Origin: Algoriphagus antarcticus
Lineage (GTDB): Bacteria > Bacteroidota > Bacteroidia > Cytophagales > Cyclobacteriaceae
Direction: 5' to 3'
Length of the DNA stretch: 64,000 bases
Assembly: GCF_002150685.1 (NCBI RefSeq)
Contig: NZ_MSSW01000040.1
Location: forward strand, 62,001 to 126,000
Shown: in pieces, positions 27,008-32,111 of the stretch
Layout: every line of letters starts with the position of its first letter
Position numbering within the stretch: position 1 is the stretch's first letter
Translations under genes and position numbers: made by a program
Notes under the pieces: generated by a model
Told to the model about the DNA's origin: nothing
What the model saw: only the letters and a program-made list of their open reading frames with translations
Database searches by the model: none

Positions 27008-29301
<2,294 letters not shown>

Positions 29302-30045
29302 ATGAATTACACCTTAACTGCGGATCTAATTGGATTAGATCGGATCACAAACTCAGATCCAGTAGCGATAACCTTCTTCATAGGTTACATGGCGATGTTG
29401 GCTTCAGCTGTTTTCTTTTTTGTAGAGCGAGGCTCTGTAGATGGAAAATGGAAGCTGTCCCTCTTAGTATCAGGTCTCATTACAGGTATTGCGGCTGTGC
29501 ACTACTACTACATGAGAGATTTTTATTTGCAAACAGGCACTAGTCCAACGGCCTTCAGATATGTGGATTGGACATTGACTGTACCTTTAATGTGTGTTGA
29601 ATTTTACCTTCTCACAAAACCGTTTGGTGCGAAAGGTGGAACTCTATTTAAGTTAATCGTAGCATCTCTAGTGATGTTGATCACGGGATATATCGGTGAA
29701 ACCTCCGGGTTAGACAGCAATATTATGTGGGGTATATTTTCCACTCTCGGGTACTTGTATATTGTGTATGAGGTTTTTGCCGGAGATATTGCAAAACTTT
29801 CAAAAGACTCCAATAGTCCTGCGCTCAACCGAGCTATGTTCTTGTTGAAGATCTTCATCACACTAGGATGGTCTATTTATCCAATTGGATATATGGTACT
29901 TCCAGGCAACTTACTGTCAGGTGCATTTGAAGTAAGTTCTATTGATCTGTTTTATAATATTGCAGATGCAATAAATAAGATTGGTTTTGGATTAGTAATT
30001 TATTCAGTAGCAATTGCTGAATCCTCCAAAACGTCAAAAGCCTAA
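29302..30045 (+). CDS. Light-driven proton pump, green-tuned proteorhodopsin/xanthorhodopsin type
   Basis: This 247-residue seven-helix protein binds retinal at Lys226 (DAINKIGFG). Helix C reads RYVDWTLTVPLMCVEFYLL. It supplies Arg86, the proton acceptor Asp89, Thr93 and the donor Glu100, the DTE pattern of outward H+ pumps. His67 is 22 residues before Asp89, as in proteorhodopsin, and helps set its pKa. Met97, at the spectral-tuning position, indicates green absorption. In helix E, IMWGIFST puts Gly144 at the place of bacteriorhodopsin Trp138, as in carotenoid-binding xanthorhodopsin. crtY and blh follow, giving the retinal supply. A strong hairpin follows the stop. There is no signal peptide. 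Confidence 0.97.
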   Translation: MNYTLTADLIGLDRITNSDPVAITFFIGYMAMLASAVFFFVERGSVDGKWKLSLLVSGLITGIAAVHYYYMRDFYLQTGTSPTAFRYVDWTLTVPLMCVEFYLLTKPFGAKGGTLFKLIVASLVMLITGYIGETSGLDSNIMWGIFSTLGYLYIVYEVFAGDIAKLSKDSNSPALNRAMFLLKIFITLGWSIYPIGYMVLPGNLLSGAFEVSSIDLFYNIADAINKIGFGLVIYSVAIAESSKTSKA

Positions 30046-30100: not shown

Positions 30101-31243
30101 ATGGATAGATACGACTATATTTTTGCCGGTGCAGGTTGCGCTGCTTTAAGCTTGGTTTTTCACATGAACCGAAGCTCGCTTAGCAATAAAAGAATACTAC
30201 TTATTGACCCATTGATCAACCAAGTTCCCAATAAAACTTGGTGCTATTGGGCAACAAAGCCGCTTGCAATTCACCCCATAAATTCGAACCATTCCTGGAA
30301 CACCTTAAACTTTAGATTTGAGGAAAATTTAGATCGAAAGGATTTAGGCAATTTGAGATATTTCCACATTAATTCTAAAGAGTTTTATCATTCTGTTTTC
30401 GAGGAGCTCAAGAATTCAGATAACATTTTTTTCAAAGAAGCAAGAGTTCATGAAATTTCCGAGAATCACAATAGTGGAATCGTGACCACCCTCGAAGGTG
30501 ATGAATACCTCGGCGACATGATATTTGATTCGAGATTTATACCTTCTAAATTAGTAGCTACACCCTACCTAAAGCAAGTGTTTGCAGGTTGGACAGTTGA
30601 AACTACTGAACCGCTTTTTGATCCATCTACATTTACGCTGATGGATATCCAAAAGAATTCACATTCGCAATTTGAGTTCTTTTACATCTTACCCTTCTCT
30701 CCAACAAGTGCATTAATTGAACTGACCGCATATTCCCAAGAGAATATAGACACGGAGATACTTGAAAGAAAATTGAAAAAATACCTCTCTACTTATTTGA
30801 AAACCAGAGAATACCAAGTTTCTTTTCAAGAAATAGGAGTCATTCCAATGACTAATAAGAGATTAGACAGTACCCCTTCCAACCGTATATTCCCGATCGG
30901 AACGGCAGCGGGTTGGACTAAGGCTTCTACAGGTTATACTTTCCAAAAAATACAAGAGAATTCAAGTAAAATAGTACGCAATATTGAAAAAGGCCAACCT
31001 CCATTGGAAGGGATAAACAGGAAGAGTAGATATGAGTTTTATGACAATATCTTATTGAATATAGCTACAAAATGGCCTGAAAAACTATCTGGTGTATTCG
31101 CTGACCTTTTCCAGAAAAATCCACCTGAAAAAGTCTTGATGTTTTTAAGTGAAGAAACTACTTTACTTGATGAGTTGAAGTTGTTGGGGAAATTGAACTA
31201 TTCTATTTTCATTAAGAGTTTGCTACACTATGAATCGCGTTGA
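30101..31243 (+). CDS. crtY: Lycopene beta-cyclase (CrtY type)
   Basis: The 380-residue flavoprotein-like protein starts with DYIFAGAGCAALSLVF, the dinucleotide-binding start of CrtY-type cyclases. NKTWCYWA near residue 46 and the C-terminal PIGTAAGWTKASTGYTFQKI are family signatures. It converts lycopene to beta-carotene, the substrate of the next gene product. It overlaps blh by 14 bp, so the two are translationally coupled. No Shine-Dalgarno is seen, as the T-run of the preceding hairpin comes directly before the ATG. The other genes needed for lycopene (crtE, crtB, crtI) are not in the window. Confidence 0.93.
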   Translation: MDRYDYIFAGAGCAALSLVFHMNRSSLSNKRILLIDPLINQVPNKTWCYWATKPLAIHPINSNHSWNTLNFRFEENLDRKDLGNLRYFHINSKEFYHSVFEELKNSDNIFFKEARVHEISENHNSGIVTTLEGDEYLGDMIFDSRFIPSKLVATPYLKQVFAGWTVETTEPLFDPSTFTLMDIQKNSHSQFEFFYILPFSPTSALIELTAYSQENIDTEILERKLKKYLSTYLKTREYQVSFQEIGVIPMTNKRLDSTPSNRIFPIGTAAGWTKASTGYTFQKIQENSSKIVRNIEKGQPPLEGINRKSRYEFYDNILLNIATKWPEKLSGVFADLFQKNPPEKVLMFLSEETTLLDELKLLGKLNYSIFIKSLLHYESR

Positions 31244-32111
31244 GCTCTTCTCAAAGACAGGAGGTCTGTTCCTTTGTATTCTTTTTATTTTCCTCCCAAA
31301 AGACGATCAAACTTTTGAATATATTTTCTTTAGTATAGTACTTATCATCGTAGGAATTCCTCATGGTGCAATCGATCATCTTACTTCAGATCCTCAGATA
31401 AATAAAAAAGGATTGCTGAGGTTTTTATTGCTATACATTTCTTTGATTTCAATCTATTTACTTAGCTGGATTTACTTGCCAGTACCAGCTTTGCTGGCAT
31501 TCATTCTGATGTCTGCGTATCACTTTGGACAAACACATTTTATCAACAGGACTGTAAAAAACAAATTTAAGGTTCTACTTTATGTTTCCCGAGGCCTCTA
31601 TTTTTTACTGTTAATTTTAGCTGGTGATTTATCACTTACCAAATCCATTTTGAGCCCAATAGCAAAACTTCCTGATGTAAACCTTTTCTATATTCTTCCC
31701 TTTTTTTTAGTTGCTACTGTAGTGATACAATGGTTTTCTACTATAAAATTTAACCGATATGATCTTTTAGAGTTAGCCATACTAGGGCCTATCCTATTTT
31801 TAAGTCCATTGATGATTAGTTTTATCGTCTATTTCGGATTCTGGCATGCTCTTCCAAGCATGACCTCAGAGTATGAGTTTTTAAAAAAATATCCAGGATA
31901 CAATACCTTCAAAAAATTCAGTAAGCATCTGCTTCCGTTTTCCGCTATCAGTATCGTGGGTATAGCATTAACTTTGATTATCGGTATTAATTATCTGGAT
32001 AAAAATGAATTAATCTTGATTTTCTTCGTTTTGATTTCTTTGATTTCCTTCCCACATATCCTCTATATGGATAGATTTTGGAATAAAACAACTAATACTG
32101 ACCAGCACTAA
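31230..32111 (+). CDS. blh: Beta-carotene 15,15'-dioxygenase, Brp/Blh family
   Basis: This 293-residue membrane protein belongs to the Brp/Blh family, which cleaves beta-carotene to two retinal molecules. The iron-binding histidine motifs are visible: GIPHGAIDHL near residue 45, SAYHFGQTHF near 94, FGFWHALPSM near 207 and FPHILYMDRFW near the end. About seven to eight hydrophobic helices are present. It starts inside the 3' end of crtY and overlaps the convergent CoA-binding gene by 20 bp. Together with crtY it supplies the chromophore for the rhodopsin upstream. Confidence 0.94.
   Translation: MNRVELFSKTGGLFLCILFIFLPKDDQTFEYIFFSIVLIIVGIPHGAIDHLTSDPQINKKGLLRFLLLYISLISIYLLSWIYLPVPALLAFILMSAYHFGQTHFINRTVKNKFKVLLYVSRGLYFLLLILAGDLSLTKSILSPIAKLPDVNLFYILPFFLVATVVIQWFSTIKFNRYDLLELAILGPILFLSPLMISFIVYFGFWHALPSMTSEYEFLKKYPGYNTFKKFSKHLLPFSAISIVGIALTLIIGINYLDKNELILIFFVLISLISFPHILYMDRFWNKTTNTDQH

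Follow-up and report, generated by a model that had tools for sequence, protein, structure and literature searches.

A probable proton-pumping proteorhodopsin of Algoriphagus antarcticus with a carotenoid-accommodating glycine and a promoter repeat in common with carotenoid gene clusters

Several microbial rhodopsins bind a carotenoid beside retinal, and a pocket glycine has been named as the primary criterion for such a site (PMC12308411). In Kin4B8, the pocket is described as consisting of Gly153, Thr157, Tyr204, Ser208 and Tyr209; energy transfer from hydroxylated xanthophylls reaches ~56% in this protein, and ~40% is given for salinixanthin in xanthorhodopsin (PMC13093654). The same source reports that 4-keto carotenoids (canthaxanthin, salinixanthin) bind Kin4B8 but transfer energy poorly, the transfer from bound salinixanthin being undetectable (PMC13093654). 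In Gloeobacter rhodopsin, the substitution G178W abolished carotenoid binding, and the mutants showed greater stability and better pumping (PMC9151804). Proteorhodopsins are treated in that paper as a type without carotenoid binding (PMC9151804); complexes with lutein and zeaxanthin are reported elsewhere for two of them, KR1 and EINA29G6 (PMC12308411), and the glycine has been published as a general feature of Bacteroidota proteorhodopsins (PMC13043013).

The DNA analysed here is a single 64 kb stretch of the Algoriphagus antarcticus genome, hereafter the window. At positions 29302–30045 (+ strand), it contains a 247-aa open reading frame that is probably a green-tuned Bacteroidota proteorhodopsin, that is, a light-driven proton pump. 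The frame matches the PF01036 profile at 143.5 bits (cut-off 24.6), and the residues named in the original prediction—His67, Asp89, Thr93, Met97, Glu100 and Gly144, together with Trp143—are all found in it. The predicted proton pump agrees with the D-T-E motif (D89, T93 and E100) and with a non-blue residue, Met97, at what we take to be the colour-tuning site. Placement within the proteorhodopsin clade, a retinal lysine (Lys226, kept in 99 of 100 aligned rhodopsin rows) and the adjacent crtY and blh genes also mark the protein as a member of this group of pumps. Its two best relatives come from an Algoriphagus MAG and from A. marinus, at 96% identity (records from the host's own genome were possibly excluded).

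The wording of the prediction is not borne out in one respect: the protein is not of the xanthorhodopsin type. Among solved chains, the best relatives by sequence are 9jov and 9jou (NM-R1; 223 bits), while 8cnk and 8cqc (green proteorhodopsin) score 196 bits, 7ytb (Kin4B8) 99 bits and 3ddl (xanthorhodopsin) 92 bits. In a tree of 32 rows, for which the program flags long branches, a branch with support of 100/95 separates nine rows (five xanthorhodopsin-type, 3ddl among them, and four Na+-pump-type) from 23 rows that include the window protein. Membership of the xanthorhodopsins is therefore rejected on both bit scores and tree, even though the equivalent of xanthorhodopsin Gly156 is present. 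An AlphaFold2 model of the window protein (mean pLDDT 87) adopts the rhodopsin fold. In a fold comparison its top match is 8cnk (Z 32.0, tied with 4kly and 8cqd); against 9jou, the model gives Z 29.9 and an rmsd of 2.0, with 49% identity over 229 residues. The title of the 9jou entry describes a zeaxanthin-bound proton pump, NM-R1, and the protein carries the same glycine; thus, there is already a solved proteorhodopsin that has the glycine and binds a hydroxylated carotenoid.

The codons for Trp143 and Gly144 (TGG GGT; 29728..29733, + strand) lie, by alignment with solved rhodopsins, at the opening of the carotenoid pocket. Gly144 had been equated with xanthorhodopsin Gly156 by eye, and a MAFFT alignment that included stretches of 3ddl, 7ytb, 6nwd, 9jov, 4jq6 and 8cnk places the two in the same column, each preceded by a Trp. 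The bulky residue foreseen for green proteorhodopsin is also seen, as the Phe of 8cnk; 4jq6 has Trp in this column. Two more residues of the carotenoid-binding class accompany Gly144: Tyr197, which aligns to xanthorhodopsin residue 207 (Tyr207), and Thr148, which shares a column with Kin4B8 Thr157. Measured against the five pocket residues of Kin4B8, the window protein keeps the first three (G144, T148 and Y197) and replaces the last two, Pro201 and Gly202 standing in the columns of Ser208 and Tyr209. This missing pair is an extra rather than a class-defining feature, and 9jov (NM-R1) is likewise without it, having Thr and Pro in those columns. In the Thr179 column of Gloeobacter rhodopsin, the window protein has Ile145. 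A glycine at this point of helix E would leave a gap beside the retinal ring, and a hydroxylated carotenoid could fit its end ring there. We regard carotenoid binding by the window rhodopsin as likely.

The glycine itself is widespread. It occupies column 144 in 98 of the 100 aligned rows, a partly pattern-selected set in which the window gene is present twice; one peptide of the six used in the search covers Gly144. Because selection by peptide biased this set toward Gly144, a second survey was made by Pfam profile across 148 genomes of the host's family. Rhodopsin matches were obtained in 53 genomes, including G477, whose match is under the family cut-off, and two with broken or fragmented genes (G372 and G491). 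The matches numbered 72, and 63 regions were aligned; those left out were the window gene, three pieces from G491, two matches in G498:C1, one in G419:C1, that in G477, and a second G372 piece lying inside a region already counted. The equivalent glycine is present in all 63 regions (46 with H-D-T-M-E, 14 with the N-D-Q of Na+ pumps, and three others including one that is broken), with the G372 region interrupted by a stop and a few regions situated at contig ends. With 63 of 63 family regions carrying it, the glycine is rejected as a rare or diagnostic mark, and its occurrence in 14/14 Na+-pump-type rows means that by itself it is no sign of carotenoid use. The pocket glycine is a known, general trait in Bacteroidota; alone, the window protein's glycine adds one more sequence. 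Two genomes in the survey have rhodopsins that are unusual in other respects: G351 has four open rhodopsin genes (L139, L164, L181 and L196), one with an unusual Y-N-T-I-Q set of key residues, and G462 encodes a strongly divergent rhodopsin (L197) whose key residues read S-D-T-L-K and which keeps the pocket glycine.

Downstream of the rhodopsin gene, the window operon continues with crtY (30101..31243, +), a lycopene cyclase family gene (PF05834, 169.6 bits, cut-off 23.4; under the NCBIfam cut-offs), and blh (31230..32111, +), of the beta-carotene 15,15'-dioxygenase family (TIGR03753, 139.3 bits, cut-off 95.25). The predicted CrtY would supply beta-carotene, which the predicted Blh would cleave to retinal. 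The arrangement recurs among relatives, with crtY directly 3' of rhodopsin in 38 of 80 related loci and blh in the same locus in 36 of these 38.

Cyclase genes elsewhere in the genome show a further pattern. The host's crtYcd (L003 7567–8240, − strand) is a pseudogene: it has a gap of 11 residues, and a conserved position is taken by an in-frame stop. Relatives have intact copies. The host also has a second, stand-alone CrtY (L114 1486–2637, on G000:C1) that is 33% identical to the rhodopsin-linked one. Across 60 genomes of the genus, rhodopsin occurs in 34, and a strong PF05834 cyclase (>100 bits; a hand count that includes pieces) in 35, namely all 34 rhodopsin-bearing genomes and G516. A second stand-alone CrtY is found in four of the 60: the host (G000), G518, G526 and G532. 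A strong open CrtYcd match is found in 55, the exceptions being the same four genomes and G513, which is 67% complete. The crtB–ispH gap is too short for crtYcd in G518, G526 and G532, and two control genomes carry the gene there. CrtYcd may have been replaced by the stand-alone CrtY.

A carotenoid for the pocket would be supplied by a separate crt cluster (contig C95, locus L003), which encodes CrtZ- and CrtW-like enzymes. The cluster comprises a crtW-like gene, ispH, the crtYcd remnant, crtB, crtI (NF058655, 750 bits, cut-off 640), an ECF sigma factor gene, a MerR-B12 regulator gene, and genes for a PF04116 protein and a CruF-like protein (76 bits against a cut-off of 155). The search for crtZ and crtW that had been proposed for naming the pigment yields one candidate of each, below a curated cut-off or without an NCBIfam model match: the crtW-like gene scores 240 bits against an NCBIfam cut-off of 350, and the CrtZ candidate is recognised by its PF04116 match and its place in the crt cluster, with no NCBIfam match. 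From this gene content, the ring of the host carotenoid is probably 3-hydroxy or 3-hydroxy-4-keto—perhaps the latter, because both crtZ- and crtW-like genes are in the genome. For comparison, flexixanthin, a monocyclic carotenoid of the 3-hydroxy-4-keto kind, is made by Algoriphagus oki45; this strain has the same crt genes as well as crtE, crtD and crtYcd, the pathway being predicted from genes (PMC10784355). The word rhodopsin is absent from that paper. Within the host's family, a crtZ match is present in 53/53 rhodopsin-bearing and 77/95 other genomes, and a crtW match in 36/53 and 21/95, respectively (raw counts, kinship included; for crtW, seven weak matches with E above 1e-6 were removed from 64). 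As proof of an antenna, crtZ co-occurrence is weak, with 130 of the 148 family genomes giving a match, and crtW co-occurrence is equally weak owing to kinship.

A 2025 paper on marine Bacteroidota by Fujiwara et al. reportedly calls carotenoids 'photocycle-accelerating pigments' in its title. This emphasis bears on whether the host carotenoid is a true antenna that, seated in the pocket, feeds retinal with energy from blue light, like those of xanthorhodopsin and Kin4B8. The conserved glycine, Thr148 and Tyr197 are in favour of an antenna, as are the transfer values published for hydroxylated xanthophylls in Kin4B8 and for salinixanthin in xanthorhodopsin. However, the host has a crtW-like gene, and 4-keto carotenoids transfer poorly on Kin4B8; together with the stress on photocycle acceleration, this makes an antenna role rather unlikely in our judgement. 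Since 4-keto carotenoids on Kin4B8 combine binding with poor transfer, we take binding by the window rhodopsin to be likely, and efficient energy transfer to be less likely than binding. A carotenoid bound by this proteorhodopsin would most likely support or speed the pump, with energy transfer a possible addition.

A second link between pump and pigment comes from the rhodopsin promoter. An inverted repeat, TTGTTTAA-N17-TTAAACAA (29204..29236, no strand assigned), lies upstream of the rhodopsin ATG and is a probable regulatory site. The repeat was first noticed in an alignment of relatives' rhodopsin promoters; in its exact form, it has a single match in the 64 kb window and none in 100 shuffles. 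In 778,745 bases from the 80 related loci, the strict repeat (spacer of 14–18) occurs 17 times, and 16 of these occurrences begin 66 to 119 bp upstream of a rhodopsin match. These loci divide into 35 close loci, with a rhodopsin at least 77% identical, 44 more distant ones, and one that is too short. With 0, 1 or 2 mismatches allowed, the repeat is found at most 260 bp upstream in 10, 24 and 29 of the close loci and, more patchily, in 6, 10 and 20 of the distant loci. Among these relatives, which are not independent of one another, the half-sites are conserved, whereas the spacer is divergent in its middle.

The repeat is also seen in promoters drawn from the profile survey, for which 27 of 46 proteorhodopsin-type and 13 of 14 Na+-pump-type regions were used (those left out include G391, G498 and G469:C115, at contig ends). 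At 0, 1 and 2 mismatches, respectively, it occurs in 10, 18 and 23 of the 27 proteorhodopsin promoters, some of the two-mismatch sites lying at odd distances (e.g., L248), versus 0, 1 and 1 of the 13 Na+-pump promoters. Twenty first-order Markov versions of the 27 promoter regions gave means of 0, 0 and 0.3 regions matched.

Carotenoid clusters carry the same kind of element. We examined 26 crt clusters, a non-random set in which 20 were chosen by crtZ–crtW proximity and five by crtB in chosen genus genomes, the last being that of the host. In all 26, the repeat (up to two mismatches) is found just upstream of the ECF sigma gene; 24 have at least two copies, mostly 44–45 bp apart, and in six clusters from the genus the last copy ends 12–15 bp before the sigma ATG. 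In the ~470 kb scanned of the host's 5.88 Mb genome, there are four matches with up to two mismatches: one at rhodopsin, the other three lying within or bordering the gap between the sigma and carH-like genes. These three sites (L003 11110–11303) have the form TTGTTTAA-N16/17-TTAAACAA with one or two mismatches, the strict repeat being absent from L003 (0 matches). Copies with one or two mismatches also occur elsewhere in the crt cluster in two genomes without a rhodopsin match (L222 1066, 5733 and 7487; L223 998 and 5599), perhaps reflecting a wider use of the element. The presence of the repeat upstream of both proteorhodopsins and the ECF sigma genes of carotenoid clusters suggests that pump and carotenoid are expressed jointly, perhaps under the control of light. 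The letters of TTGTTTAA are in print at least within a gene sequence (PMC6692529) and within a primer (PMC11217422), and among the papers listed in our literature searches we know of no published source for a repeat common to rhodopsin and crt promoters; this common element may be new.

What might read the repeat? Adjoining the crt genes, L003 11296–12186 encodes a regulator with a MerR domain (PF13411, 60.3 bits) and a B12-binding domain (PF02607, 41.7 bits). Residues 139–150 of the protein form a W-x9-E-H motif, which has been named for CarH (PMC8156234). We label it only 'CarH/LitR-like', because its score against the curated CarH equivalog model (NF052513, 104.1 bits) is under the cut-off of 400. 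We put the chance that this CarH-like protein reads the repeat at about even. Among the titles and abstract openings listed in our literature searches, none ties CarH or LitR to proteorhodopsin expression in Bacteroidota.

Alternatively, the repeat could be a promoter that the crt-cluster ECF sigma factor reads, made up of two boxes 16–17 bp apart, rather than a CarH/LitR-like operator. Such spacing resembles a −35/−10 pair, and the sigma gene itself bears the repeat, as would fit autoregulation. Yet the element is a near-perfect inverted repeat, is present in two or more copies in nearly every cluster at a rather constant distance, and in the six genus clusters lies so close to the sigma ATG that a repressor site suits it better; further, its half-site holds TnnACA, which is part of the CarH operator consensus nAnnTnnACAn (PMC8156234). 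A sigma promoter is hence, in our view, a doubtful account of the repeat, and the simplest controller would be the CarH/LitR-like B12 light sensor whose gene adjoins the crt genes.

Taken as a whole, we think it fairly probable that the window encodes a proteorhodopsin with a carotenoid-accommodating glycine, that a carotenoid supports this pump, and that the pump operon and the crt cluster, bearing the same kind of inverted repeat, are controlled together through it. Least plausible is a pocket that is lipid-filled or open, with the glycine inherited and the protein running on retinal alone: the glycine is in all proteorhodopsin-type and Na+-pump-type regions surveyed (and is maybe kept for other reasons) and the Ser208/Tyr209 anchors are missing, but NM-R1 (9jov), which shares the glycine and likewise lacks the anchors, has a zeaxanthin-bound entry, and every one of the 53 rhodopsin-bearing family genomes has a crtZ match, common though such matches are.

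A bolder version of the favoured reading, in which proteorhodopsin and carotenoid are co-controlled, is that both belong to one light-switched regulon. Here, a CarH/LitR-type B12 photoreceptor would act in darkness through the common repeat to silence both the proteorhodopsin operon and the ECF-sigma-led crt cluster, light would free both, and the partner pigment in this host would be a 3-hydroxy-4-keto carotenoid. We advance this only tentatively; if true, each pump would be made together with its xanthophyll. The literature passages covered, none of which came from a search aimed at the topic, contain no report of such a pairing of pump and pigment in a regulon. Through the shared repeat, a connection between making proteorhodopsin and making carotenoids could be put to direct test in a group of aquatic bacteria, and one could begin to ask when these cells produce their pumps. 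The crtW-like gene, in turn, makes this host well suited to the question of whether a carotenoid that is both ketolated and hydroxylated acts as antenna, photocycle accelerator or filler in a proteorhodopsin.

Among known systems, NM-R1 (9jou; 9jov in the alignment) resembles the window protein in its H-D-T-M-E residues, the W-G at the pocket and the Tyr at position 197. The two differ in that NM-R1 reads W-G-x-x-S-G and the window protein W-G-x-x-S-T, as in xanthorhodopsins, and in that a crtW-like gene is found in the window's host. Salinibacter ruber xanthorhodopsin (3ddl) and Kin4B8 (7ytb, 8i2z) share with the window protein the glycine (156 and 153, respectively) and the pocket Thr and Tyr; however, the window protein stands across the 100/95 branch from them and is without the Ser208 and Tyr209 of Kin4B8. 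Green proteorhodopsin (8cnk, 8cqc) has the same proton-pump motif, but Phe in place of Gly144. Finally, CarH/LitR B12 light sensors resemble the L003 regulator in combining MerR and B12-binding domains beside crt genes and in the W-x9-E-H motif. Whereas CarH operators are 11-bp direct repeats (PMC8156234), the host element is inverted, although its half-site TTAAACAA contains the TnnACA of the CarH consensus.
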